Shown here: in pieces, positions 16,957-31,608 of the stretch
How positions within the stretch are numbered: the first letter of the stretch is position 1
How the letters are laid out: the number at the start of each line of letters is the position of its first letter
Assembly (NCBI RefSeq): GCF_903853455.1
Contig: NZ_CAINTR010000075.1
Coordinates: 1 to 45,242, forward strand
Origin: an uncultured Magnetospirillum sp.
GTDB lineage: Bacteria; Pseudomonadota; Alphaproteobacteria; Rhodospirillales; Magnetospirillaceae
Direction of reading: 5' to 3'
Length of the DNA: 45,242 nt
The notes under the pieces: model-generated
The model's database searches: none
What the model saw: the letters and a program-made list of their open reading frames with translations, nothing else
Told to the model about the DNA's origin: nothing
Made by a program: the position numbers and the translations under genes

Positions 16957-17042
16957 GACGACCTCGCCTTGTGCTCAGAGCCCACGCACCCAAACTAAGC
17001 CTTGAGAGAATGCCGCGCAACGCCCCTGGGGAGCCCTCCTCC

Positions 17043-19007
<1,965 letters not shown>

Positions 19008-19023: not shown

Positions 19024-19131
19024 GCCCTCAATCGCCGGGCGCCCACATCCGTGGGCTTGGCTTTCGCGCCACGAGGCGCGCCGGGCCTTGCCCGCAACTC
19101 CTCGCCAATGAACATGTTCGTTGGCTCGTCG
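19024..19131 (-). repeat. Variable-hairpin element, family 1 copy 1
   Basis: Read on the minus strand: CGACGAG, hairpin GCCAA...TTGGC, linker GAGTTGCGGGCAAGG, hairpin GCGCC-TCGT-GGCGC, linker GCGAAAGCCAAG, hairpin CCCAC-GGAT-GTGGG, then CGCCCGGCGATTGAGGG. Copies 2 (29326) and 3 (30863) keep the linkers but have different stems. It lies in the gap behind the DUF255 gene. Confidence 0.75.
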
Positions 19132-19157
19132 ATACCAATGAACGGGTAAACGCTCCC

Positions 19158-19607
19158 ATGCCACAGCTCTCGTTCACCAGCCCCATCGGCCCCCTGGCCC
19201 TGTTCGAGGCCGACGACGCCATCGTCGCGCTCGACTGGGGCTGGCTGCCCGAAAGCGACGACACTCCCCTGCTGCGCCGCGCCCGCGACCAGTTGGAAGA
19301 GTATTTCGACGGCAAACGCCGGGTCTTCGACCTGACGCTGGCGCCCCAGGGAACCGTCTTCCAGCGCAAGGTCTGGGCCGCGCTGGAACAGATCCCGTTC
19401 GGTTCCACCCTCAGCTATGGCCAACTGGCCGAAAAGCTGGGCACCGCGCCGCGCCCCCTGGGCGGCGCCTGTGGCCGCAATCCCATTCCGGTGATCATCC
19501 CCTGCCATCGGGTGCTGGCGGCCGATGGCGGTCTCGGCGGCTATTCCGGCATCGACGGCATCGAGACCAAGGAATTCCTGCTTCGTCTGGAGGGAGTCAA
19601 ACCATGA
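19158..19607 (+). CDS. ogt: Methylated-DNA-[protein]-cysteine S-methyltransferase
   Basis: The protein (149 residues) removes alkyl groups from O6-alkylguanine in DNA by transfer to its own cysteine. The acceptor motif is IPCHRVL near the C-terminal third; the DNA-binding helix-turn-helix region includes TVFQRKVWAALEQIPFGSTLSYGQLA, and CGRNPIPVI supplies the arginine-asparagine region. It is slightly short in the N-terminal domain compared with E. coli Ogt. ATG at 19158 is preferred to upstream frames, which run into the hairpin element. The stop overlaps the qor start (ATGA). Confidence 0.92.
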   Translation: MPQLSFTSPIGPLALFEADDAIVALDWGWLPESDDTPLLRRARDQLEEYFDGKRRVFDLTLAPQGTVFQRKVWAALEQIPFGSTLSYGQLAEKLGTAPRPLGGACGRNPIPVIIPCHRVLAADGGLGGYSGIDGIETKEFLLRLEGVKP

Positions 19608-20578
19608 CCCATGCCATCCGCATTCATTCGGTCGGCGGACCCGAGGTGCTGCACTGGGAAGAGGTGACGGTGCCGGCGCCGGCCCAGGGCGAGATCCTGC
19701 TGCGCCAGACCGCCATCGGCCTCAACTTCATCGACGTCTATCACCGCACCGGGCTTTATCCGGCGCCGCTGCCCTTCACCCCCGGCCTCGAAGGCGCCGG
19801 ATTGGTCGAGGCGGTGGGCGACGGTGTCGTCGGAATCGAGATCGGCGACCGTGTCGCCTATGCCAGTCCGCCGCTGGGGGCCTATGCGGAAGCGCGGGTG
19901 ATCCCGGCCGACCGGGTGGTGGCCATTCCCGACGCCATCACCGACCGCCAGGCCGCCGCCATGATGCTGCAAGGCATGACGGCCCATTACCTGCTACGCC
20001 GGACCTACCGGGTCCAGCCCGGCGACACCATCCTGATCCACGCCGCCGCCGGTGGCGTCGGCCTGCTGGTCTGCCAGTGGGCCAAGCATCTGGGCGCCAC
20101 CGTCATCGGCACGGTAGGGTCCGAGGACAAGGCGGCGCTGGCCCGCGCCCATGGCTGCGACCATACCATCTTGTACAAGACCGAGAATTTCGTCACCCGG
20201 GTGCGTGAAATCACCAACGGCGCCGGCGTGCCGGTGGTCTACGATTCGGTGGGCAAGGACACCTTCCTGTCCTCGCTCGACTGCCTGCGGCCGCTGGGCA
20301 TGATGGTCCTGTTCGGCCAAAGCTCGGGCATGGTCGATCCGCTCGACACCGGATTGCTGGCGGCCAAGGGCTCGCTGTTCCTGACCCGGCCGTCGCTGAT
20401 GGCCTACACCGCCCGGCGCGAGGATCTGGTGGTCGCCGCCGCCGAACTGTTCGACGTGGTGGCCAAGGGCGCGGTCAAGATCGAGGTCAACCAGACCTAC
20501 GCCTTGAAGGACGCCACCCAGGCCCATCGCGACCTGGAAGGCCGCAAGACCACCGGTTCGACGGTGCTGTTGCCCTAA
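19604..20578 (+). CDS. qor: NADPH:quinone oxidoreductase (zeta-crystallin type)
   Basis: This 324-residue medium-chain dehydrogenase/reductase lacks the zinc ligands of alcohol dehydrogenases, as quinone reductases do. The substrate domain has GLNFIDVYHRTGLYP and TPGLEGAGLVEAVG; the Rossmann fold has the nucleotide motif HAAAGGVGLLVCQWAKHLGA. It would reduce quinones with NADPH in the cytosol. It is translationally coupled to the methyltransferase gene by a 4-base overlap. Exact substrate unknown. Confidence 0.9.
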   Translation: MTHAIRIHSVGGPEVLHWEEVTVPAPAQGEILLRQTAIGLNFIDVYHRTGLYPAPLPFTPGLEGAGLVEAVGDGVVGIEIGDRVAYASPPLGAYAEARVIPADRVVAIPDAITDRQAAAMMLQGMTAHYLLRRTYRVQPGDTILIHAAAGGVGLLVCQWAKHLGATVIGTVGSEDKAALARAHGCDHTILYKTENFVTRVREITNGAGVPVVYDSVGKDTFLSSLDCLRPLGMMVLFGQSSGMVDPLDTGLLAAKGSLFLTRPSLMAYTARREDLVVAAAELFDVVAKGAVKIEVNQTYALKDATQAHRDLEGRKTTGSTVLLP

Positions 20579-20652
20579 TTGGGTTTGGCCTTGGGGCAAA
20601 ACGTATTAAGCTGCCGGGAGTGTTGGGGAAAACTACCCCGCAGGAGGACGTC

Positions 20653-21039
20653 GTGAGTGGGTCCAAGTTGGGCAAATGGGTGGTGACGGGAGTCAGTCTG
20701 CTCTGGGTGGCCTGGGCCGGATGGGATCAGTTCGGCAATCTTTCCGAGGACGACATCGAAAACCACTCCTCCAGCGCCGTGCAGGAACGGATGCGTGATT
20801 GCTCGGGCACCTTCAAGCAGCGCTACGAGTGCAAGGAAAACATCGTCATCCAAAGCGGCCGCAGCACCTTCAACGCCATGCTGGGGCGCATGTCCATCGT
20901 CGTGGTGCCGCCCATCCTGCTGATCGCCGGCCTGCATATGTTGAACCGGCGCCGCCCCGACGACGACGGTCCCAGCGACGACCTGCTGCAAGAGCATCAC
21001 CGGCGCCACCATCGCCGCCGCACCTCCGGCCATTCCTGA
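20653..21039 (+). CDS. Small two-helix membrane protein, hypothetical
   Basis: This 128-residue protein starts at GTG with a strong GCAGGAGG five bases upstream. An N-terminal membrane segment (VVTGVSLLWVAWAGW) is followed by an acidic loop with two cysteines (DCSGTFKQRYECKEN), a second membrane segment (MSIVVVPPILLIAGLHML) and a basic, His/Arg-rich tail. The two cysteines would be in the periplasm if both ends are cytoplasmic, so a disulfide is possible. No family recognised. It lies 74 bases after qor and 20 before the decarboxylase-like gene. Confidence 0.65.
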   Translation: MSGSKLGKWVVTGVSLLWVAWAGWDQFGNLSEDDIENHSSSAVQERMRDCSGTFKQRYECKENIVIQSGRSTFNAMLGRMSIVVVPPILLIAGLHMLNRRRPDDDGPSDDLLQEHHRRHHRRRTSGHS

Positions 21040-21059
21040 CCGCGAAAAGAGTCCCCTTC

Positions 21060-21839
21060 ATGTCCCTGGTCCGCGTCGATATCGATGGCCTTCTGGCCAC
21101 CCTTACCATGACCAATCAGCCCAAGCGCAATGCCCTGTCCGAAGCCATGATCAACGAGGTCCTGGCCGGACTGGACGAAGCCCTGGCCGCCAAGGTCCGC
21201 TGCGTCATCCTGCGGGCGGAGCCGGGGGTCAAGATCTGGTCGTCCGGCCACGATATTCAGGAGTTGCCCAAGTCCCATCGTGATCCGCTGGGCTGGAGCG
21301 ACCCGCTGCGGGTGGTAATCCGCGCCATCGAGGAATTCCCCGCTCCCATCATCGCCCTGATCGAGGGCGGCGTCTGGGGCGGTGCCTGCGAAGTGGCCCT
21401 GGCCTGCGACATCATCGTCGCCACGCCCGATTCCACCTTCGCCATCACGCCGGCCAAGCTGGGCGTTCCCTATAACGTCACCGGCCTGCTGACCTTCATG
21501 AACGCCGCCAGCCTGCATACGGTCAAGGAAATGGCTTTCACCGCCCGGCCGATCGATGCCGAGCGCGCCCTGCTGGTCGGCCTGATCAACCATCTGCGGC
21601 AAGCGGACGAGATCACCGCCTTCTGCGTCGAGATGGCGCGCGGCATCGAAAAACTGGCGCCCTTGGCCATCGCGGTGATGAAGGAAGAGTTGCGGGTTCT
21701 GGCCTCGGCCCATTCCATCACCCCCCGCATGTTCGAGCGGGTCCAGGGCATGCGCCGCAAGGTCTATGACAGCACCGACTACGAGGAAGGCGTCAAGGCC
21801 TTCAAGGAAAAGCGGCCGCCGGTTTTCCTCGGGGAGTAG
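21060..21839 (+). CDS. scpB: Methylmalonyl-CoA decarboxylase-like enoyl-CoA hydratase family protein
   Basis: This 259-residue crotonase-fold protein resembles E. coli ScpB (YgfG) more than ordinary hydratases. Shared stretches include SGHDIQELP, the WGGACEVALACDIIVA oxyanion-hole region, TPAKLGVPYN, APLAIAVMKEELRVL and RVQGMRRKVYDS. ScpB decarboxylates methylmalonyl-CoA to propionyl-CoA. The symbol rests on remembered similarity; another crotonase activity is possible, since no mutase or CoA transferase genes are adjacent. The gene is convergent with rho, and the gap holds a multi-hairpin element. Confidence 0.8.
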   Translation: MSLVRVDIDGLLATLTMTNQPKRNALSEAMINEVLAGLDEALAAKVRCVILRAEPGVKIWSSGHDIQELPKSHRDPLGWSDPLRVVIRAIEEFPAPIIALIEGGVWGGACEVALACDIIVATPDSTFAITPAKLGVPYNVTGLLTFMNAASLHTVKEMAFTARPIDAERALLVGLINHLRQADEITAFCVEMARGIEKLAPLAIAVMKEELRVLASAHSITPRMFERVQGMRRKVYDSTDYEEGVKAFKEKRPPVFLGE

Positions 21840-21846
21840 AGGAATT

Positions 21847-21956
21847 GCAGGGCTCTGCCCTGCACCCGCCAGGGACCTGGTCCCTGGACCCCATTTCTGA
21901 TTAAACCAGCGGGATCAAAGGGCCTTAGGCCCTTTGCGGGCGTGGGCAGAGCCCAC
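21847..21956. repeat. Multi-hairpin intergenic element, family 2 copy B
   Basis: Hairpins GCAGGGC/GCCCTGC (21847-21863), CCAGGGACC/GGTCCCTGG (21869-21887), CAAAGGGCC/GGCCCTTTG (21916-21936) and GTGGGC/GCCCAC (21942-21956), with ACCCGC between the first two and ACCCC plus an AT-rich spacer after the second. It lies between convergent genes and may also end both transcripts. Confidence 0.72.
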
Positions 21957-21977
21957 AATGATCACGTCACATTAAGC

Positions 21978-23234
21978 TCAGGAATTCATCGCCTCGAAGA
22001 AGTCCGAGTTGTTCTTCGAGTGCTTGAGCTTGTCCACCAGGAATTCCATGGCGTCGACCACGCCCATGGGCATCAGGATACGGCGCAGCACCCACATCTT
22101 GGACAGCACGCCCTTGTCGACCAGCAGCTCTTCCTTGCGGGTGCCCGACTTGGTGATGTCGATGGCCGGGAAGGTCCGCTTGTCCGACAGCTTGCGGTCG
22201 AGGATGATTTCGGAATTGCCGGTGCCCTTGAACTCCTCGAAGATCACCTCGTCCATGCGCGAGCCGGTGTCGATCAGGGCGGTGGCGATGATGGAGAGCG
22301 AGCCGCCCTCCTCGATATTGCGGGCGGCACCAAAGAACCGCTTGGGCCGCTGCAACGCGTTGGCATCGACGCCACCGGTCAGCACCTTACCCGAGCTGGG
22401 CACCACGGTGTTGTAGGCCCGCGCCAGACGGGTGATGGAATCCAGCAGGATCACCACGTCGCGCTTATGCTCGACCAGCCGCTTGGCCTTTTCCAGCACC
22501 ATCTCGGTGACCTGGACGTGGCGCGACGCCGGCTCGTCGAAGGTAGAGCTGATGACTTCGCCGCGCACCGAGCGGGCCATGTCGGTCACTTCCTCCGGCC
22601 GCTCGTCGATCAGCAGCACGATCAGGTAGACGTCGGGATGATTGGCGGAGATGGCATGGGCCATGTTCTGCAACATCACGGTCTTGCCGGTACGCGGCGG
22701 GGCGACGATCAGGGCGCGCTGGCCCTTGCCGATGGGCGCCACCAGATCGATCACCCTGGTGGTGAGATCCTTCTTGGTGGGGTCGTCCAGTTCCAGCCGC
22801 AGCTTTTCGTCCGGGTAAAGCGGGGTCAGGTTGTCGAAGTTGATGCGATGCCGCACATTGTCCGGCGGCTCGAAATTGATGGTGTTGACCTTGAGCAGGG
22901 CGAAATAGCGCTCGCCGTCCTTGGGGCTGCGGATCTGGCCTTCGACGGTGTCTCCGGTGCGCAGGCTGAAGCGGCGAACCTGGCTGGGGCTGACATAGAT
23001 ATCGTCGGGACCCGGCAGATAATTGGCTTCCGGGCTGCGCAGGAAGCCGAACCCGTCCTGCAGGATCTCCAGCACGCCGTCGCCATAGATGGCCACGTCG
23101 TTGTCGGCCAGCTGCTTGAGGATCGCGAACATCATGTCCTGCTTGCGCAGGGTGCTGGCGTTCTCGACCTCGAGCTCCTCGGCGAAAGCCAACAGCTCGG
23201 CCGGCGTCTTCTTCTTCAGTTCCTGGAGATGCAT
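21978..23234 (-). CDS. rho: Transcription termination factor Rho
   Basis: This 418-residue hexameric RNA helicase ends untranslated transcripts. It starts [21 protein letters not shown] (Rho N-terminal domain), followed by the cold-shock-like RNA-binding domain ([32 protein letters not shown]). The ATPase domain has Walker [14 protein letters not shown], Walker [16 protein letters not shown] and the Q/R-loop regions near the C-terminus. Length and motifs are normal. A good promoter lies at 23398-23426, leaving an unusually long leader of about 150 bases, where autogenous control is often found in other bacteria. Confidence 0.97.
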
Positions 23235-23397
23235 GAAGTGGTTCCGTTAGAAAGCCCCGGCGCGGGGGAAATCGGCCTGAAATGCGCGGGTCCGACCAAG
23301 CGGACCGGGTGCCGATCAAGGAGACGGATGCGAGTGATCCGGCGCGGGTGGGTGAATCTGGGGATGGGCCTGTTTCGGCCCTCAAGGATTTTGCCCA

Positions 23398-23426
23398 GCT
23401 TTAGCCAAAGCATCGCCCGCTGTCAA
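23398..23426 (-). promoter_or_regulatory. Promoter of rho
   Basis: On the minus strand TTGACA (23426-23421), a 17-base spacer and TAAAGC (23403-23398) form a sigma-70-type promoter with a perfect -35. Transcription would start near 23390 and read a leader of about 155 bases before rho. The leader is GC-rich and contains GGGCCGAAACAGGCCC, a possible hairpin. Confidence 0.5.
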
Positions 23427-23441
23427 ACAGGATTGTTCAAA

Positions 23442-23879
23442 TCAAAACGGCTTAACGATCACCAGGATGACGATGACGATCATCAGCAGGGTCGGAACCT
23501 CGTTTATGACGCGATAGAATTTTGCACTGCGATGATTGGCGTTTTCGGAGAATTGAACCCGGCAGTGGTTCAAGAACAGATGCGCGGCAGTCATGGCCAC
23601 CACCGCCAGCAACTTGGCGTGGAACCAGTGATGGCTGAACAGACCGCCCTCCACCGCCAGGACCAGACCCAGGACCCAGGCCAGGACCATGGCCGGAGTC
23701 ATGATCGCCTTGATCAGCCGGCGCTCCATGATCTTGAAGGTGGCGGAGGCCTCCGACCGGGGATCAACGCCGCAATGGTAGACGAACAGCCGGGGCAGAT
23801 AGAGCATTCCCGCCATCCACGAGATCACCGCGATGACATGGACCGCCTTGATCCACAGATAGGTTTCACCGCTCAGCAT
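23442..23879 (-). CDS. hemJ: Protoporphyrinogen IX oxidase HemJ
   Basis: HemJ (145 residues) is the membrane enzyme oxidising protoporphyrinogen IX in many alphaproteobacteria. Visible are the N-terminal YLWIKAVHVIAVISWMAGMLYLPRLFVYH with its conserved histidines, four hydrophobic segments, the MERRL region and GLFSHHWFHAKLLAVVAMT. The next step, ferrochelatase, is encoded directly upstream and overlaps it by seven bases. The order hemE-hemH-hemJ gives three late steps of haem synthesis in one operon. Confidence 0.92.
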   Translation of the reverse strand: MLSGETYLWIKAVHVIAVISWMAGMLYLPRLFVYHCGVDPRSEASATFKIMERRLIKAIMTPAMVLAWVLGLVLAVEGGLFSHHWFHAKLLAVVAMTAAHLFLNHCRVQFSENANHRSAKFYRVINEVPTLLMIVIVILVIVKPF

Positions 23880-24871
23880 GCGCAACTCCGTCCCAACTGC
23901 CGACAGGCCACGCCCTTGACCGTGGCGGGATCGCCGACCAGTTCGGCCAGACCCTGGATGAACGACGGATGGCAACTCAGCGCCGGCACCCGCACATAGG
24001 CCGGTATCCCCAATTCGTCGGCGCGATGGCGGTATTCCATGTCCAACTCCACCAGGGTTTCGGAATGCTCCGACACGAAGGCGACCGGCACCACCACCAC
24101 CGGCACCTTGTCGCGGCCGGCGCGCTCCAACTCGGCTTCGATGCTGGGGCCGATCCATTCCATGGGGCCGACTCGGCTTTGATAGCAGACCACCCAGTCG
24201 AGGCCATCAAGACCGGTGACCTGGGCTACGGCGGCGGCGGTCAGTTCCACCTGGGCCTGATAGGGATCGCCCCGCTCGATCACTTTTTTCGGCAGGCCAT
24301 GGGCGGAGAACAACACCCGCGGCCGGCCCTGGAGCGAAGCTTCGCCGTGGCCGTGGCGAACCCGGTCGGCCATGGCCTCCACCAACCCGCCTTGGGTCGG
24401 ATAGCAACACACCGTGCGGGTCGGCAGATCGAGACCCTGCCGTGCCGCCTCGGCCGCCCATTGCCTGAGCGACGACCCGGTGGTGGTGGTGGAGAACTGC
24501 GGATAGAGCGGCAGCAGAACGACCTGGTCGGCGCCCCATTGTTTGACCGCCGTCACCGTCTCGTCGGCGAAGGGGTGCCAATAGCGCATGGCGACAAAGC
24601 AGCGACAGGTCTTGCCCAGCACCTGCTCCAATGCCCGCGCCTGGGCCTCGGTCTCGGGCAACAGCGGCGAGCTTCCGCCGATCTTGGCGTAGATCTCCCG
24701 CGCGATGGGAGCCCGTTTGCCGGAAATATACTTGGCCAGCAGCCAGCGAATCGGACCCGGCGCCCCGATGATGGCCTTGTCGTTGAACAGGTTGAACAGA
24801 AACGGCTTCACCGCCTCGGGGCTGTCGGGACCACCGAGGTTGAACAGAATTACGGCGGTTTTGACGCTCAC
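23873..24871 (-). CDS. hemH: Ferrochelatase
   Basis: Ferrochelatase (332 residues) inserts Fe2+ into protoporphyrin IX. The family start [44 protein letters not shown], the catalytic-histidine segment [32 protein letters not shown] and [17 protein letters not shown] are all present. The GTG at 24871 overlaps the hemE stop (GTGA), which decides the start. The C-terminus has cysteines ([12 protein letters not shown]); some ferrochelatases carry an iron-sulfur cluster there, but the spacing here is not diagnostic. Confidence 0.95.
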
Positions 24872-25908
24872 CCTTTCCAGCCCTTCACCCGCGCCGCCAG
24901 CCGCGCCACATTCTCCGGCGGGGTGGGCGGCACGATGCCATGGCCGAGATTGAAGATGAACGGTCCCTTGCCCAGCGCCTTGAGCACCCGGTCGATGCCG
25001 GCGTCCATGGCCTCGCCGCCCGCCACCACCAGCAGCGGATCGAGGTTGCCCTGCACCGTGCACCGGGTCTGCAATTCGGCGGCGGCCCACTCCAGCGGTA
25101 CCGATGGGTCCAGCGAAACGCCGTTGACCTTGGTCTCGGCGACATAGCGCTTGTAGAGATATCCGGCCTGACGGGGAAAGCCGATCACCGGCACGCCCGG
25201 CCGCTCGGCGTGAATGCGTTCCACCAGCGTGCGGGTGGGTCCGATCACCCAGCGCTCGAACTGGTCCTCCGGCAGCGCCCCGGCCCAGGTGTCGAAAATC
25301 TGGATCGCCTCGGCGCCGTTATCGATCTGACGGATCAGATAATCACCGGTGGTCTGGATCAGCAGCGCCATCAGCCGGGCGAACAATTCGGGTTGGCCGA
25401 ACATCATGCCCTTGGCCTTGGCGAAATCCTTGGAGCCGCTGCCCTCGATCATGTAGGTGGCCACCGTCCACGGCGCTCCGGCAAAGCCGATCAGCGCGGT
25501 GGTGGCGGGAATTGCCTTCGAGAGATTGGCCATGGTCTGGTAGACCGGAGCGAGATGGTCGTGCAGGCCCGAGGCGTCGAGACCATCCAGATCCATTGCC
25601 GAGCGAATCGGTGTCAACACCGGACCTTCGCCCTCCTTGAAGGCAACCTGTTGCCCCAAGGCGTCGGGAATCACCAGGATGTCGCTGAACAGGATCGCCG
25701 CGTCGAAACCGTAGCGGCGAAGCGGTTGCAGTGTCACTTCGGTGGCGAAACCGGGATTGTAGCACAGGTCGAGGAAGCTGCCGGCTTCGGCGCGGGTGGC
25801 GCGGTATTCGGGCAGGTAGCGCCCAGCTTGGCGCATCAGCCAGAAGGGGGGGGGCGTTAGGGTTTCCCCGGCGAGGGCGCGCAGGAACGGCTTTTGGGAT
25901 TTGGGCAC
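24868..25908 (-). CDS. hemE: Uroporphyrinogen decarboxylase
   Basis: HemE (346 residues) converts uroporphyrinogen III to coproporphyrinogen III. The N-terminal signature [17 protein letters not shown] is intact, as are [12 protein letters not shown] with its substrate aspartate, [29 protein letters not shown] and [16 protein letters not shown]. The GTG at 25908 has AAGG about nine bases upstream. In Caulobacter and other alphaproteobacteria hemE borders the origin; here the same side carries a 411-bp gap. Confidence 0.96.
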
Positions 25909-26319
25909 GGGCGGTGACCTTGAAATCGGGGATCTGGAGCTTTGGCGTTCGTCTCTCTTACAGGCTTTAGAGTTTAGAGAAAAGGTGGCTGTGGTAAGAG
26001 GGTGGCTGTGAATGATGGGGATTAGCGTTGCCACGCCGCTTGTCCCCAGATCTATCCCGGATGGCCGTCATAAGTCGGAAATTTGTGGATGATTCAGTGA
26101 TCCGCTTGATTCGGCAGGTGAAAATCAGGCGACCAAACCGGGGGTAAGTCGGGGAAATCGGATGTGGAAGCGGGGAATTCACGCTATCTTGGCCCACGTC
26201 ACGAATTGTTTTGGACAGCCGGGCAAGTCCGGGTGCGGAATCGGGGTCAGTGGGGAGCGTTTGGCGCCCTCGGCGCCGACCCCCCCGGTTATCCCCGGAG
26301 TTAAGGCTTATCCACAGGC
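25909..26319. other. Candidate chromosomal origin of replication (oriC)
   Basis: This gap lies between hemE and the ppsR-maf-aroE-coaE-dnaQ-secB block, the position of the Caulobacter origin (established knowledge). It contains one perfect DnaA box TTATCCACA (26308-26316), a one-mismatch box TGTGGATGA (26084-26092), a two-mismatch box TTATCCCCG (26289-26297), and three GANTC sites (26091, 26108, 26238), the target of CcrM-type methylases. A nested inverted repeat runs from GGGGTC (26243) to GACCCC (26283) around GGCGCC-CTC-GGCGCC. No CtrA-type TTAA-N7-TTAA site and no strongly AT-rich tract is seen, so proof is lacking. Confidence 0.6.
26308..26316 (+). promoter_or_regulatory. Perfect DnaA box before ppsR
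   Basis: TTATCCACA is the consensus DnaA box, only three bases before the ATG of ppsR. DnaA bound here could act in replication initiation and on ppsR expression. Confidence 0.75.
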
Positions 26320-27180
26320 ATGAAGAGCTTCCATCTGCATCTCGTGTCCGACGCCACCGGTGAGACCGTCACCTCGATCATGCGCGCCTGCCTGGTTCAA
26401 TTCGAGGGCGTGCAGCCGGTTCAGCATAATTGGTGGCTGGTCCGCACCCAGGGTCAGGTCGAGCGGGCCATCGCCGGCATCGAGGACCATCCCGGGCTGG
26501 TGCTGTTCACCCTGGTCGACAGCGCGGTGCGGACCTTGTTGGAAGAGGCCTGCCGCCATCGCAAGATCCCCTGCATTTCGGTGCTCGACCCGGTGATGGC
26601 GGGGCTGTCGGCCTATCTCGGGGTCGAGGTCAAGGCCCTGCCCGGCCGGCAATATCAATTGGATGCCGAGTATTTCCGTCGTATCGACGCCATGCAGTTC
26701 ACCCTGGCCCATGACGACGGCCAGCTGATGGAGCTGGTGGAGGACGCCGATATCGTGCTGGTGGGGGTGTCGCGCACCTCCAAGACGCCGACTTGCATGT
26801 ATCTGGCCAATCGCGGCCTCAAATGCACCAATTACCCGCTGGTTCCCGGCGTGCCGCTACCGCCCGAGCTGGAGCGCATCAAGAATCCGCTGGTGGTGGG
26901 CCTGACCAAGGACCCCAAGAGCCTGTCCGACATTCGCCGCGCCCGCCTGCGCCTGTTGAACCAGGAGGAGGAGGCCGACTACGCCCAGTTCGAGAAGGTC
27001 AAGGAGGAGGTCCAGCAGGCGCGGCGCCTGTTCTCCCGCCATGGCTGGCCGGTGGTGGACGTGACCCGGCGCTCCATTGAGGAGGCCTCGGCCACCATCA
27101 TGCAGCTCTATGACCGGCACATGGAGCGCCGCGAGGGCGACAAGCCCAAGGACTCCGAGGCGGCGGACACAACACCGTGA
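26320..27180 (+). CDS. ppsR: Pyruvate, phosphate dikinase / PEP synthase regulatory protein (DUF299)
   Basis: This bifunctional kinase/pyrophosphorylase (286 residues) switches pyruvate-phosphate dikinase or PEP synthase by ADP-dependent phosphorylation and phosphate-dependent reversal. The opening HLHLVSDATGETV, the central ISVLDPVMAGLSAYLG and the P-loop-like GVSRTSKTPTCMYLANRG are characteristic. Which of the two target enzymes is present cannot be told from this window. It is the first gene right of the putative origin; its stop overlaps the maf start (GTGA). Confidence 0.92.
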   Translation: MKSFHLHLVSDATGETVTSIMRACLVQFEGVQPVQHNWWLVRTQGQVERAIAGIEDHPGLVLFTLVDSAVRTLLEEACRHRKIPCISVLDPVMAGLSAYLGVEVKALPGRQYQLDAEYFRRIDAMQFTLAHDDGQLMELVEDADIVLVGVSRTSKTPTCMYLANRGLKCTNYPLVPGVPLPPELERIKNPLVVGLTKDPKSLSDIRRARLRLLNQEEEADYAQFEKVKEEVQQARRLFSRHGWPVVDVTRRSIEEASATIMQLYDRHMERREGDKPKDSEAADTTP

Positions 27181-27767
27181 TTGTCCTCGCCTCCGCCAGT
27201 GCCGCCCGGCGCTCCATGCTGGACGCGGCCGGCATCGCCTTCACCGTGGATGTGGCGGCCATCGACGAGGAGGCGGTCAAGCAGGGTCTGCGGCGGGAAA
27301 CCGCCAATCCGGCGCGGGCCGCCGAGACCCTGGCCGAGTTGAAGGCGGTGCGGGTTTCGGCTCGCCATCCCGGCGCCCTGGTCATCGGCGCCGATCAGAT
27401 GCTCGATTATGGCGGGGTCTGGTTCGACAAGCCGCGGACTCTGGCGGAAGCCCGCCAGCAATTGCTGACGCTGCGCCACCACACCCACCGCCTGACCAGC
27501 GCGGTGGTGGCGGTGCGCGACGGACGGCGCATCTGGGTTCACGCCGACCACGCCCTGCTCACCATGCGCAATTTCACCGACGCCTTTCTCGACACCTATC
27601 TCGCCCGCGTCGGCGAGGCGGCGCTGGCATCGGTGGGGGCCTATCAACTGGAGGGGTTGGGGGCGCAGTTGTTCCTGACCGTGGAGGGCGATTTCTTCAC
27701 CGTCCTCGGCCTGCCGCTGCTGCCGCTGTTGGATTTCCTGCGCGACAACGGAGAACTGACTCCATGA
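27177..27767 (+). CDS. maf: Maf-family nucleotide pyrophosphatase
   Basis: This Maf protein (196 residues) would hydrolyse non-canonical or modified nucleoside triphosphates. The N-terminal motif LASASAARRSMLDAAG is the substrate loop; VIGADQMLDYGG carries the catalytic aspartate region, and FDKPRTLAEARQQL is typical. The start is GTG at 27177 overlapping the ppsR stop; the stop overlaps aroE (ATGA), so the four-base overlaps link ppsR-maf-aroE. It belongs to the DQ(M/V) group rather than canonical DTVV proteins, so subfamily activity is uncertain. Confidence 0.92.
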   Translation: MIVLASASAARRSMLDAAGIAFTVDVAAIDEEAVKQGLRRETANPARAAETLAELKAVRVSARHPGALVIGADQMLDYGGVWFDKPRTLAEARQQLLTLRHHTHRLTSAVVAVRDGRRIWVHADHALLTMRNFTDAFLDTYLARVGEAALASVGAYQLEGLGAQLFLTVEGDFFTVLGLPLLPLLDFLRDNGELTP

Positions 27768-28603
27768 TTCTGTCCGGCAAAGCCCGATTGGCCGGGGTGA
27801 TCGGCTGGCCGGTCTCTCATTCGCGCTCGCCGCGCCTGCACGGCTTCTGGTTGGACCATCTGGGCATCGACGGCGCTTATCTGCCGCTGGCGGTGACGCC
27901 GGCCAATCTGGAGGCGGTGGTCCGGGCCCTGCCGAAGATGGGCTTTCGCGGCTGCAACCTCACCGTTCCCCATAAGGAGGCGGCGCTGGCCCTGGTGGAC
28001 GAGCTGGAGCCGTTGGCGGCGCGCATCGGGGCGGTCAACACCCTGGTGGTGCGCGACGACGGCAGCCTGCTCGGCCGTAACACCGATGCCTTCGGCTTTC
28101 TCGAGAACCTGCGGCGCGGCTGCCCCGCCTGGACTCCGGCGGCGGGACCGGCGGTGGTGATCGGTGCCGGCGGCGCCGCCCGTGCCGTGGTGGCGGCCCT
28201 GATCGAGGCCGGCCTCGCCGAAATTCGTCTGGTCAATCGTGGCCGCGACCGGGCCGAGCAACTGGCCGCCGATCTGGGTGGGCCGGTCACCGTAGTGGAC
28301 TGGGCCGACCGGTCGGTCGCCCTTGCGGACGCCGCTCTGCTGGTCAACACCACGACGCTGGGGATGACCGGTCAGTCCAATTTGGATCTCGACCTCGCCG
28401 CCCTGCCGCCGACCGCCCTGGTCAACGACATCGTCTATGTGCCGCTGGAGACCGATCTGCTGGCCCGCGCCCGCATGCGGGGCAATCCCGTGGTGGACGG
28501 GCTGGGCATGCTGCTGTGGCAGGCGGCGCCCGGCTTCGAGGCCTGGTTCGGAGTGCGGCCCGAGGTCACGGCCGTGCTGCGGGACTTCGTGCTGGCGGGC
28601 TAA
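27764..28603 (+). CDS. aroE: Shikimate dehydrogenase
   Basis: AroE (279 residues) reduces 3-dehydroshikimate with NADPH. The shikimate-binding SHSRSPRLHGFWL, the catalytic lysine in NLTVPHKEAAL, RNTDAFGF and the nucleotide-binding VIGAGGAARAVVAAL followed by NRGRDRAEQL are visible, as is the C-terminal DGLGMLLWQAAPGFEAWFG. The gene starts inside the end of maf. After the stop, a 100-bp inverted-repeat element separates it from coaE. Confidence 0.96.
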   Translation: MILSGKARLAGVIGWPVSHSRSPRLHGFWLDHLGIDGAYLPLAVTPANLEAVVRALPKMGFRGCNLTVPHKEAALALVDELEPLAARIGAVNTLVVRDDGSLLGRNTDAFGFLENLRRGCPAWTPAAGPAVVIGAGGAARAVVAALIEAGLAEIRLVNRGRDRAEQLAADLGGPVTVVDWADRSVALADAALLVNTTTLGMTGQSNLDLDLAALPPTALVNDIVYVPLETDLLARARMRGNPVVDGLGMLLWQAAPGFEAWFGVRPEVTAVLRDFVLAG

Positions 28604-28612
28604 AGAGTTTCG

Positions 28613-28708
28613 ACACGAATGAACACGAATAAATCGAATAGGCTTGGAGCGCGCGGTGGCGACAGGTGCCGTCCTGCCCCATTCGTGTTCATTCGTGTTC
28701 ATTCGTGT
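28613..28708. repeat. ACACGAATGA inverted-repeat element, copy 1
   Basis: The left arm ACACGAATGAACACGAAT (28613-28630) is complementary to a longer right arm of ATTCGTGTTC units (28681-28708) around a unique GC-rich centre. Spurious reading frames across such elements yield the widespread NTNEHEW and FIRVHSC peptides. It lies inside an operon, between aroE and coaE. Confidence 0.82.
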
Positions 28709-28728
28709 CTGAATCGGGTCTTTTCATC

Positions 28729-29322
28729 ATGAAGATCCTGGGTCTCACCGGCTCCATCGGCATGGGCAAGACCACGGCGGCGGCCATGCTGCGGCGGCTG
28801 AGGGTGCCGGTGCACGATGCCGACGCCACCGTCCATGGCCTGTTCGCGCCCGGCGGGGCGGCGGTGGCGGCGGTGGATGCCGCCTTCCCCGGCGTGGTGG
28901 TGGACGGTGCGGTGGATCGCGGCCGGCTGGGGGCGGTGGTGTTCGGCGATCCGCTGGCGCTGAAGCGGCTGGAGGCCATCGTCCATCCCCTGGTGCGCGC
29001 CGCCGAGCGGGATTTTCTCGCCCGGCAAAGGCGGCGGCACACCAAGCTGGTGGTGCTGGACGTGCCGCTGCTGTTCGAAACCAACGGGGGCCGGCGGTGC
29101 GACAGGGTGGCGGTGGTCAGCTGCGCCGCCTTCCTCCAGGCTCAGCGGGTGCTGGCGCGGCCGGGCATGACCGAGGAGCGCTTGGCCGCCATCCGCGCCA
29201 AGCAGATGCCCGACGCCGCCAAGCGTCGCCGCGCCGATTTCGTCATCCCCACCGGCATGGGCAAGCCCTTGGCCTTGCGCCGCCTGAAGGCGGCGGTCAG
29301 AGTGATGAAAAGCGGGGCATAG
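28729..29322 (+). CDS. coaE: Dephospho-CoA kinase
   Basis: CoaE (197 residues) performs the last step of coenzyme A synthesis. The P-loop GLTGSIGMGKTTAA, DADATVHGLF, IVHPLVRAAE, LDVPLLFETN and the lid region RPGMTEERLAAI-x-AKQMP are present. ATG at 28729 begins directly at the conserved strand MKILGLTG; upstream in-frame codons lie in the inverted-repeat element and are discarded. A variable-hairpin element starts four bases after its stop. Confidence 0.95.
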   Translation: MKILGLTGSIGMGKTTAAAMLRRLRVPVHDADATVHGLFAPGGAAVAAVDAAFPGVVVDGAVDRGRLGAVVFGDPLALKRLEAIVHPLVRAAERDFLARQRRRHTKLVVLDVPLLFETNGGRRCDRVAVVSCAAFLQAQRVLARPGMTEERLAAIRAKQMPDAAKRRRADFVIPTGMGKPLALRRLKAAVRVMKSGA

Positions 29323-29325
29323 ATT

Positions 29326-29417
29326 CGACGAGCTTTGCTCGGAGTTGCGGCCAAGGGCCGGCGCCGCTCATGCGGCGAAAGCCAAGCCACCGGTGGCGGC
29401 GCCCGGCATTTGAGGGA
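29326..29417 (+). repeat. Variable-hairpin element, family 1 copy 2 (leader of dnaQ)
   Basis: CGACGAGC-TTT-GCTCG, linker GAGTTGCGGCCAAGG, hairpin GCCGC-TCAT-GCGGC, linker GCGAAAGCCAAG, hairpin CCACC-GGTGG, then CGCCCGGCATTTGAGGG. It fills the coaE-dnaQ gap, and its final GAGGG lies eight bases before the dnaQ ATG, so it may supply the ribosome-binding site. Confidence 0.78.
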
Positions 29418-29424
29418 CAACACA

Positions 29425-30111
29425 ATGCGCGAGATTGTACTGGATACCGAAACCACCGGCTTCGACCCCCTGTCGGGCCATCGCATGGTGGAAATGGGCT
29501 GTGTCGAGCTGTTCAACCACCTGCCCACCGGCGAGGTGTTCCACCGCTATCTCAACCCCGAGCGCGACATGCCGGAGGAGGCCTTCAAGGTCCACGGCCT
29601 GTCGGCGGATTTTCTGGCGGACAAGCCGCTGTTCGCCGAGGTGGCGGCGGATTTCCTGGCCTTTATTGGCGATTCGCCGCTGGTGATTCACAACGCCGAA
29701 TTCGACATGCGTTTCATCAATGCCGAGTTGGCCCGGCTGGGACAGGCGACCCTGCCCATGAGCCGCTCCATCGACACGGTGGCCATGGCGCGCAAGCGCT
29801 TTCCCGGTGCCCAGGCCAATCTGGACGCGCTGTGCCGTCGCTTCGAGATCGACAATGGCCACCGTACCAAGCACGGGGCGCTGCTGGACGCCGAATTGCT
29901 GGCCGAGGTCTACCTCCAGCTGATCGGCGGCCGTCAGCCGGGCCTGGAGCTGGGGGGCGTGAACAAGACCACCGGCCAGGCTTCCGGCACCGCCCGCGTG
30001 GACCGGGTGGCGCGGCCGGCACGGCCGCACGCCCCCACCGAGGCGGAGGCGGCGGCGCACGCCGCGTTTGTCGCCAAGCTGAAAAACCCGGCCTGGCTGC
30101 GGGAAGAGTAG
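29425..30111 (+). CDS. dnaQ: DNA polymerase III epsilon subunit (proofreading exonuclease)
   Basis: DnaQ (228 residues) is the 3'-5' exonuclease of the replicase. Exo I is VLDTETTGFDP, Exo II HNAEFDMRFINAEL, and Exo III-epsilon KHGALLDAELLAEVY with its catalytic His and Asp. A Gly/Ala/Pro-rich linker (from about residue 175) leads to a C-terminal segment with FVAKLKNPAWL, as expected for binding the polymerase subunit. ATG at 29425 is preferred because the conserved strand starts there and GAGGG precedes it. Confidence 0.95.
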   Translation: MREIVLDTETTGFDPLSGHRMVEMGCVELFNHLPTGEVFHRYLNPERDMPEEAFKVHGLSADFLADKPLFAEVAADFLAFIGDSPLVIHNAEFDMRFINAELARLGQATLPMSRSIDTVAMARKRFPGAQANLDALCRRFEIDNGHRTKHGALLDAELLAEVYLQLIGGRQPGLELGGVNKTTGQASGTARVDRVARPARPHAPTEAEAAAHAAFVAKLKNPAWLREE

Positions 30112-30138
30112 GGAGTTAGCCGCGCTCCCTTCCTCCTC

Positions 30139-30265
30139 GTCACCCCCGCGAAAGCGGGGGTCCATGTTGGGGCGGGCTCCGATGCAAACTGCTCGATATC
30201 GTGCCGCTTGACCCATGGATTGTCCGCTTCGCGTTCCCTTCGGTCCCCGCTTTCGCGGGAATGAC
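30139..30265. repeat. Pair of inverted REP-like repeats
   Basis: GTCACCCCCGCGAAAGCGGG (from 30139) and its near reverse complement ending GCGGGAATGAC (30243-30265) flank about 80 bases. Each half is itself a hairpin around GCGAAAGC. This is a common bacterial REP/BIME form, placed between the convergent dnaQ and secB, where it may protect both mRNA ends. Confidence 0.75.
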
Positions 30266-30283
30266 GATAAGAGAGCCTATTTC

Positions 30284-30760
30284 CTAGGCGTTGCCGGCCG
30301 GCTGCTGGGCCGCCATTTCTTCCAGGCGGGCGCGGTACAGCGCCACGAAGTCCAGCGGCTGGATCATCAGCGGCGGGAAGCCGCCGTCGCGGGTGAGGTC
30401 GGCGACGATGTTGCGGGCGAACGGGAACAACAGACGCGGGCACTCGATCATCAGCACCGGATGGACCTGCTCTTCCGGGACGTTGACGGTGAACAGGCCG
30501 GCATAATCCAGCTCGACGATGAACAGCGGCTTGGTCGGCAGCTTGGCCTCGATGCGCAGATGCAGCACCACCTCGAACAGATTGGGGGCGATGCTGGTGG
30601 CGTTGACGTCCACATGGATCGGAATCTCGGGATTCTGGCCCTGCGGCTCCATGAACACCTGCGGCGCGGACGGGATCTCGAAGGACAGGTCCTTGATATA
30701 CTGGCCGTTGACCTGCAAGGCCGGCTGCTGCTCCGCCTGCGGCGTCGGGGTGTCGGTCAT
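30284..30760 (-). CDS. secB: Protein-export chaperone SecB
   Basis: SecB (158 residues) is the tetrameric cytosolic chaperone that hands preproteins to SecA. Family stretches include VNGQYIKDLSFEIPSAP, VNATSIAPNLFEVVLHLRIEAK, FIVELDYAGLFTV and the C-terminal LFPFARNIVADLTRDGGFPPLMIQPLDFVALY. The N-terminal 15 residues are Gln/Pro-rich. A good AGGAG lies upstream of the ATG. It is monocistronic and convergent with dnaQ; this order is conserved in alphaproteobacteria. Confidence 0.96.
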   Translation of the reverse strand: MTDTPTPQAEQQPALQVNGQYIKDLSFEIPSAPQVFMEPQGQNPEIPIHVDVNATSIAPNLFEVVLHLRIEAKLPTKPLFIVELDYAGLFTVNVPEEQVHPVLMIECPRLLFPFARNIVADLTRDGGFPPLMIQPLDFVALYRARLEEMAAQQPAGNA

Positions 30761-30862
30761 ATGATCCTCCTGGTTCGGTCGGCACGCGCGGGCGGGCGAA
30801 TCATGGGGTTGCCGGCGAGGCCGGCCCGCGCGGGCGGTGTCAATGATGCCGGGGTATCATAC

Positions 30863-31017
30863 CGACGAGCGAATGGAAACCTCCATTCGCTCGGAGGCAA
30901 GGCCAAGGGCCGCCGCCGCCCGCCGGCTTTGCCGACGACGATATGATAGCACGCCTACGCGTGCGTGGCGCGAAAGCCAAGGGATGCGGAACGCATCCCG
31001 CCCGGCGATTGAGGGGC
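30863..31017 (+). repeat. Variable-hairpin element, family 1 copy 3 (with insertion)
   Basis: CGACGAG, hairpin GAGCGAATGGA...TCCATTCGCTC, linker GGAGGCAAGGCCAAGG, then about 50 extra bases with their own hairpin, hairpin GCACGC-CTAC-GCGTGC, linker GCGCGAAAGCCAAG, hairpin GGGATGCG-GAA-CGCATCCC, then CGCCCGGCGATTGAGGG. Outside the core, TATCATA (from 30854) can pair with TATGATA (from about 30951). It lies between fxsA and secB. Confidence 0.75.
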
Positions 31018-31035
31018 AACCCTGCAAAGGCACAA

Positions 31036-31500
31036 CTACGGCTCCAGCCGCTTGTGGTCGGGGCGCTTGGCCTCCGGCTCGATGATCTCGTAATCGGCCT
31101 CGATGATGACGGGGCCGGCGGCGGCTCCCGGCGGCCGGCCCTGCGTCACCACCAGCCGGGTTCCGACCCACAGCCGCAAACCGGTCCGCACCCAGGGCAA
31201 CAGCAGCAGCAGCGCCAGGATGTCGGTCAGGAACCCCGGAATGATCAACAGCACGCCCGCCATGGTCAGGCACAGACCGTCGAAGGCGGATTGCAGCGGC
31301 AGCTCTCCCCGTTCCATGCGGGTACGGGCGTCCAGCAGCATGGCCAGACCTTGGCGGCGTAAAATCGCCATGCCGGCCAGGAAGGAGAGGATGGACAGCA
31401 AAATGGTGGGGCCGGCGCCGATCAGCTCGGCCGTCTTGATCCACACCATGATTTCCATCACGGGCAGCGAGATCACCCCGGCAACGATCAACCAACCCAT
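31036..31500 (-). CDS. fxsA: FxsA family membrane protein
   Basis: This 154-residue inner-membrane protein matches FxsA, known in E. coli for easing exclusion of phage T7 by the F plasmid; its ordinary function is unknown. It has hydrophobic segments at WLIVAGVISLPVMEIMVWI, GAGPTILLSILSFLAGMAI and MAGVLLIIPGFLTDILALLLLLP, the last with the family's LIIPGFLTD motif. A soluble acidic tail follows. ATG at 31500 begins at the first membrane segment; an upstream start at 31521 lacks support. It is divergent from the Tim44-domain gene. Confidence 0.9.
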   Translation of the reverse strand: MGWLIVAGVISLPVMEIMVWIKTAELIGAGPTILLSILSFLAGMAILRRQGLAMLLDARTRMERGELPLQSAFDGLCLTMAGVLLIIPGFLTDILALLLLLPWVRTGLRLWVGTRLVVTQGRPPGAAAGPVIIEADYEIIEPEAKRPDHKRLEP

Positions 31501-31608
31501 GCTTGCTCTTTCCCCGATCACGCCTTATCTCTTGGACACAGCCGGCATCCATGGTGCCGCGACTTTCGATTTATCGCGGTTCCCGCCAGCCTATCCCGGA
31601 CTTAACCG

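Follow-up and report, generated by a model that had tools for sequence, protein, structure and literature searches.

A four-hairpin intergenic repeat with conserved linkers and covarying stems in Magnetospirillum and other Alphaproteobacteria

The nearest literature to the element described here comprises the report on CGTC-tagged repetitive extragenic palindromic (REP) sequences (PMC3733652), a REP survey (PMC12306157) and a review (PMC2229807). CGTC REPs are single hairpins of 20-40 bp that carry an unpaired CGTC tag and a CCA-like tail and have A.T pairs at the base of the stem, and none was found in Acetobacteraceae (PMC3733652). The present element was first recognized in a 45,242-nucleotide stretch of an uncultured Magnetospirillum sp. 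(NCBI RefSeq assembly GCF_903853455.1, contig NZ_CAINTR010000075.1, positions 1 to 45,242 of the forward strand; the window), in which the original prediction had listed three copies of a dispersed repeat. Like the CGTC REPs, its members are high-copy intergenic palindromes, mostly of Alphaproteobacteria, with heterogeneous stems and loops and with no dedicated transposase found, and they form head-to-head dimers, which prevail in CGTC REPs; in two of the four CGTC families most dimers are heterodimers (PMC3733652). Unlike them, the element has four hairpins and other linkers and tail, and it occurs in relatives of Roseomonas. With ~90-155 nt, it also differs from the single 20-40 bp palindrome with an unpaired tag that characterizes both CGTC and GTAG REPs.

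The non-autonomous, high-copy population of palindromic copies resembles the GTAG REPs and REPINs mobilized with RAYT proteins, from which it is set apart by the lack of a Y1_Tnp protein in the source genome and by not being a GTAG-tagged single hairpin (PMC3116915, PMC2817692). Similarly, IS630-related miniature inverted-repeat transposable elements (MITEs) such as RUP and the Correia/NEMIS elements are ~100-150 bp long with many intergenic copies, and inverted termini flanked by TA are present in some copies of our repeat; unlike in these elements, most copies lack the 3' terminus and the part shared across the class is the multi-hairpin core (PMC2229807). The Caulobacter CIR, likewise a ~110 bp alphaproteobacterial intergenic repeat with conserved folded arms and a linker, is described as having conserved GANTC sites in the loop, a distinction drawn from its description (PMC2229807). 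Membership in CIR was rejected, as GANTC occurs anywhere in H1 plus core in only 26/150 copies. No Rfam family reached its gathering threshold over the window, and none overlapped copies 2 and 3 (28900-31300) up to an E value of 10; for copy 1 the comparison was run at gathering level only. No published description of the repeat was found in the literature searched, although an earlier account is possible, as most subscription papers lay outside that search. We read the family as non-autonomous, structure-dependent mobile DNA repeats of the REP/MITE kind or of that of bacterial interspersed mosaic elements (BIMEs), with a probability of roughly 0.55.

Fixed linkers and covarying stems

The core consists of four hairpins (H1-H4) with near-invariant linkers between them, in the order CGAC, GGAG, TTGC or GCAA, GCGAAAGCCAAG, GCCCGGC and TTGAGGG. 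Three stems had been predicted; the fourth, H2, was found in the words GGCC-AAG-GGCC and GGGC-AAG-GCCC, which form a covarying hairpin of their own. H1 is a hypervariable hairpin 3' of CGAC, while H2 comprises 4 bp around a loop that is mostly AAG or AAA and in sphingomonads GACC or GAAC. H3 has 5-6 bp and a short loop and is followed by AAAGCCAA. H4 is variable and enclosed by a short outer GCC/GGC stem, which is reversed to GGC...GCC in 5/132 parsed copies; G(A/C)TTGAGGG and an A-rich stretch follow. In one sphingomonad form of H3, CGAGC/GCGAG, G.A and A.G take the place of two Watson-Crick pairs and were scored as unpaired. Single folds pointed to a three-way junction closed by GTTGCGGGC/GCCCGGCGATT, but this was rejected because the 3' letter is independent of the 5' variant (GA/GC 37/18 with TTGC and 19/17 with GCAA), and an intrinsic terminator was rejected because the tail is A-rich, not T-rich.

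Variants of the two ends were also observed. In some copies H1-H2 give way to a second 5' module, GGAGCGAAGCGACTAGCCCGTTGAGGG, which can be read as a hairpin containing tandem G.A pairs (L205:2000-2200, L011:1440-1500, L273:1440-1500). At four loci of the source genome (C77:6967, C77:14259, C160:724 and C169:51542; L201, L202, L220 and L229) the usual tail is replaced by a hairpin repeat, CCGCCCC..GGGGCAAACGACGCCC..GGGCGGCCCCG, joined behind GCCCGGCGG in three copies and behind AAAGCC in one. A palindrome resembling the CGTC type of REP (CCCCGC..GCGGGGGTGACGAGG) lies directly upstream of copies in L258 and L046.

The predicted covariation was tested statistically, and the stems covary beyond controls. 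In a set of copies picked by their linkers alone, with no filter on pairing, 351/356 H4 pairs form and 50/55 copies are perfect, as compared to 60% pairing on average and 68% at most when the 3' arms were re-dealt (1000 trials). H3 in 54 copies forms 305/324 pairs, with 80% and at most 86% for re-dealt arms. An H1 stem of at least 6 bp is present in 60/96 copies with GGAG, whereas a plain shuffle, the control used for H1, yielded a mean of 4.5 (maximum 9), and 55 distinct H1 arms of at least 5 bp were counted. An alignment of 81 copies from the source genome (A4) contains 143 cells changed on both sides vs 48 in shuffles, pairing drops to 33-48% in every slid register, and 39 copies from several organisms behave in the same way. 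A4 and a further alignment, A3, were prefiltered on H2/H3 pairing, which inflates their H2/H3 pairing, while H4 in A4 is unfiltered.

The kinds of pairs are informative as to the cause. The H4 pairs of the linker-only set comprise 348 Watson-Crick pairs, 3 G.T pairs and 5 mismatches, and one-sided changes (6) and unpaired cells (4) are rare among the 1296 cells of A4. Ordinary folded RNAs are usually richer in wobble pairs. The scarcity of G.T pairs and of one-sided changes therefore favors pairing at the DNA level or a change of both arms at once, and fits better with either than with stepwise compensation in RNA. The original prediction had seen compensatory change and selection for RNA or single-strand DNA structure; of this, conserved structure and covarying stems hold, while stepwise RNA compensation is spoken against by these counts and by two sphingomonad head-to-head pairs in which the arm types were swapped by inversion of the middle. 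The structure is likely to be under selection, with templated or recombinational change of the arms as the alternative cause.

Copy number, spread and empty sites

In the source genome (G000; 5.18 Mb, 223 contigs) the pattern GCGAAAGCCAAG-N4..34-GCCCGGC-N1..3-TTGAGG has 55 matches and the reversed pattern has 0, so the repeat is not due to chance. A covariance model of the core built from 12 copies (R1) found at least 150 matches in this genome, all with E <= 1e-6, and the family has hundreds more copies in relatives; genome-wide tallies rest on the 150 scored matches, which the true copy number may exceed. R1 matched in 44/55 genomes of the family. A broader model (R2) matched in 24/289 genomes of the class, with 1 to at least 17 matches each, and in 12/299 genomes drawn from the phylum, all 12 from the same class or nearer; the share of the 299 outside the class is not stated. 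The linker pattern occurs in at least 106 stretches of named genomes, and among the matches listed the hosts are sphingomonads, Erythrobacteraceae, Roseomonas and relatives, Magnetospirillum, Paramagnetospirillum and other Rhodospirillales, with single hits in Nitratireductor, Sneathiella, Terasakiella and others. The distribution over the Alphaproteobacteria is patchy, as for mobile elements. No match to plasmids and phages was found by blastn with copy 3 as the sole query. Eleven stretches of viral contigs, which may be prophage or host DNA, fit the linker pattern (L304-L314), and one contig (L305) has two head-to-head pairs.

Copies also occur in pairs and arrays. The parsed copies include 16 head-to-head and 0 tail-to-tail pairs. 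None of the 16 lies in G000; all come from other organisms' loci or from viral contigs, so that opposite-orientation paired copies, as in BIMEs, are found outside the source genome. The partners differ in type in 16/16 pairs, 12 of which are exactly GCGC/CGAGC with GGCC/GCGCC. Fourteen tandem arrays were read (G046, G038, G035, G000), and 8/14 open with a 3' fragment, the start of which lies within H4 or immediately behind it; the full units that come next have nearly identical stems.

We compared the insertion sites with those of a sister species (G046), the nearest relative compared, as judged by genes next to the window copies, of which ~1.2 Mb was taken from contigs picked for known copies and then covered in long runs. 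Both flanks were found for 26/150 copies, 23 of them in long stretches. An automatic test reported no element at 21/26 sites; on reading, five of these (19, 37, 72, 90, 140) could not be counted as empty, since they hold a relic or a copy differing in type or orientation, or repeat the hit to an occupied site. The remaining 16 empty sites all belong to the 23 in long stretches, so most matched copies arrived after the species split, unless they were cleanly lost in G046. Accordingly, the family is first of all a mobile repeat and not a set of resident small RNAs, which qualifies the predicted selection for structure. No regular target duplication was detected, the longest flanking direct repeats being equal to the control apart from tandem arrays and one 16-nt case, although a 2-bp TA duplication would escape this test. 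That case (C183:40250, L240) is, outside arrays, the sole copy flanked by a long perfect repeat, GGGGCATGACCAATGA, and the stop and start codons of its neighbors are intact.

Sites occupied in two genomes reveal how the stems change. The comparison comprised 24 pairs of copies in different genomes, from 24 loci of which several were reused, so that the pairs are not independent. Parsing allowed at most one mismatch per linker and required H2/H3 pairing, which inflates linker identity and the H2/H3 counts; no pairing filter was applied to H4, and tandem G.A forms (CGAGC/GCGAG) were tallied as non-standard. Both-sided pair changes were observed in 22/24 site pairs over H2-H4 and in 16/24 in H4. 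The H4 base pairs comprise 39 with both letters changed, 1 with a single letter changed, 15 that are non-standard in at least one copy and 94 without change; the corresponding numbers for H2-H4, with H2/H3 prefiltered, are 100, 9, 43 and 213. Linkers, which also served as search criteria, were identical in 661/720 letters and loops in 144/195. The clearest case is C112:15845 of G000 vs C55 of G046, where the flanks are 91-94% identical and H2, H3 and H4 are all different and all paired. In the sphingomonad pairs L112/L152 and L104/L156 the middle is opposite in direction relative to the flanks, which is not the case in L133/L305.

Within G000, copies with the same H4 share H2 (0.333 vs 0.346) and the H1 arm (0/89 vs 0.013) no more often than other copies, and they are slightly likelier to share H3 (0.428 vs 0.345). 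No two of the 150 copies have identical cores, and alignment of the 400 k-mer-closest pairs yielded two pairs that reach 95% identity across the core together with H1, namely a tandem pair and a pair of copies in the long form described below. We tentatively suggest that stems may be rewritten as units, with both arms replaced in one event that is nearly independent of the other stems and falls at dispersal or shortly thereafter; the joints would be left unchanged, and the process would be driven by a putative enzyme reading the linkers in folded DNA.

The copies in the window

All three predicted copies were recovered, with ends one or two bases away from those first given and with the shared linker words in the predicted order (Table 1). 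The claim of perfect or near-perfect stems was borne out on reading, with one C.A mismatch in H1 of copy 1 and one A.C in H4 of copy 2. The extended H3 of copy 3 holds two additional small hairpins (GCCGGC..GCCGAC and GCACGC..GCGTGC), and several genomic copies have the same extension.

Table 1. Coordinates and hairpins of the three repeat copies in the window.
Feature	Position	Strand	Description
Copy 1	19025..19131	-	covariance model E 1.1e-20
Copy 1, H1	19131-19102	-	followed by GGAG (19101-19098)
Copy 1, H2 and H3			GGGC-AAG-GCCC; CGCGCC-TCGT-GGCGCG, then AAAGCCAA
Copy 1, H4			GCCCAC-GGAT-GTGGGC, then GCCCGGC and GATTGAGGG
Copy 2	29326..29416	+	covariance model E 2.4e-18
Copy 2, H1 and H2			CGAGC-TTT-GCTCG; GGAG (29341-29344); GGCC-AAG-GGCC
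Copy 2, H3 and H4			CGCCGC-TCAT-GCGGCG; GCCACC-GGT-GGCGGC, tail ATTTGAGGG
Copy 3	30863..31015	+	covariance model E 3.3e-17
Copy 3, H1 to H3			ATACCGACGAG just before H1, CGAGCGAATGGA..TCCATTCGCTCG; H2 GGCC-AAG-GGCC; H3 extended
Copy 3, extended H3	30915..30969 (bounds approximate)	+	~45 nt above usual length
Copy 3, H4			GGGATGCG-GAA-CGCATCCC, tail GATTGAGGG
Linker GCGAAAGCCAAG, copy 1	19056-19067	-	
Linker GCGAAAGCCAAG, copy 2	29375-29386	+	
Linker GCGAAAGCCAAG, copy 3	30970..30981	+	

Copy 1 lies between a DUF255 gene (16971-19007 +) and ogt (~19161-19607 +) and copy 3 between secB (30284-30760 -) and fxsA (31036-31521 -), each antisense to both neighbors, while copy 2 fills the gap from the coaE stop codon (29322) to the start of dnaQ (29425-30111). 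Inspection of the congeners by reading showed no core upstream of dnaQ in 16/16 or behind fxsA in 14/15 of those listed, although the gene order differs in some; G046 has a copy with different stems at the latter site. The coaE-dnaQ gap of three relatives (L269, L271, L278) holds another repeat with inverted halves, CCACAGAT-AACACAG..ATCTGTG.., so this gap takes different repeats, and in G046 it holds a form of the GGAGCGAAGCGACTAGCCCGTTGAGGG module alone.

Mobile repeat or alternative origins

If the repeat is a mobile DNA element, an enzyme encoded elsewhere would recognize the linkers once extrusion has exposed the hairpins, as single-stranded DNA or in a cruciform, and a copy would be inserted without a regular target duplication. 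Since recognition would depend on shape and linkers, the letters of the stems would be free to drift, and the complementarity of the arms might be maintained through selection against a lost shape, through one arm serving as template for the other, or through exchange and inversion between copies. Insertions would survive chiefly between genes, often just past stop codons, where the hairpins would enter 3' or intercistronic mRNA.

Several observations weigh against this reading. IS200/IS605-type single-strand transposons show an orientation bias to replication and no target duplication; no replication-strand bias of the repeat was found in two congeners (48 vs 47, with the origin placed at dnaQ), and alternative origin placements for one genome (G043) gave p values of 0.06 to 1.0. 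Strand targeting is not supported by these counts. No mover was found either: Y1_Tnp (PF01797, RAYT) has 0 matches in G000, while the same search was positive in 5/14 control genomes, and RAYT was accordingly rejected as the mover. Arrival after the species split without near-identical short copies outside tandem arrays is awkward for simple copying. The flanks of sites matched between G000 and G046 are mostly 80-94% identical, so that "recent" is relative and exact ends are uncertain. Conservation of the linkers is partly built in, since they served to find the copies, and the orientation of copies between genes, described next, could mean a role in RNA.

The repeat could instead be a cis-acting RNA element selected at each site, the hairpins of which protect or process transcripts while GAGG in the tail acts as the ribosome-binding site of the next gene. 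Gene calls by a codon-model finder of our own, trained on 10 reading frames of the window, placed 142/150 copies in intergenic regions. In gaps between tandem genes 59 copies are sense and 24 antisense (p = 0.00015), a bias in favor of such a role; gaps between convergent genes hold 41 copies and those between divergent genes 11, and 7 copies lack a neighbor on the stretch. Where the core faces a gene on the opposite strand, its commonest end point is ~12 nt short of that gene's stop codon. The commonest core start is 33 nt past a stop codon, which puts H1 close to the stop, and the commonest core end is 9 nt ahead of a start codon; these two positions are also consistent with a cis-acting RNA element, as is the small variation of linkers at the same sites, as far as linkers used for the search can tell. 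However, the 24 antisense copies, the G.T pairs below the number usual for folded RNAs, the empty sites in the sister species and the lack of conservation of the window sites in the genus argue against it, and we consider it unlikely.

We regard as improbable that the family is an IS630-type MITE in which a long, TA-flanked form is the true element moved by IS630 transposases and the short forms are remains truncated at the 3' side. The long form has a fifth hairpin and inverted, TA-flanked ends, ATACCG..CGGTAT or ATACCAA..TTGGTAT. A search keyed on the 3' end found GGTAT behind a hairpin in 13/150 copies, and on reading both ends were present in 11; two subfamilies of the long form contain pairs that are 90-96% alike. 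G000 has five DDE_3 matches (IS630-like loci), one of which has inverted repeats, ATACCAAG..CTTGGTAT, with the same outer 7 bases as one long subfamily. Yet this likeness concerns 7 bases in 1/5 loci, most copies, among them some whose site is empty in G046, have no 3' terminus, and flanking direct repeats are not in excess, within the limit given above for a 2-base TA duplication.

Finally, mutation might be the main source of the paired stems, through quasipalindrome correction at replication or through recombination or inversion between copies, and selection on shape might be slight. This is very doubtful, since arm copying leaves the fairly conserved loops and linkers at the same sites unexplained, even though the excess of both-sided over one-sided changes, the near-independent assortment of stems within G000 and the inverted middles of the two sphingomonad pairs agree with it.

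The structure-dependent mobile repeat which we favor is abundant in several alphaproteobacterial groups, namely sphingomonads, Erythrobacter, Roseomonas and the relatives of Magnetospirillum. If its stems are indeed rewritten as units, it would represent a bacterial mobile element recognized by its shape and joints, with self-templated diversification of the stems. Copies at the same sites record both-sided changes and almost no one-sided intermediates, which makes the question of selection or templated mutation directly testable for palindromic repeats. Owing to their position at stop and start codons, the copies may shape transcript ends in many genomes.

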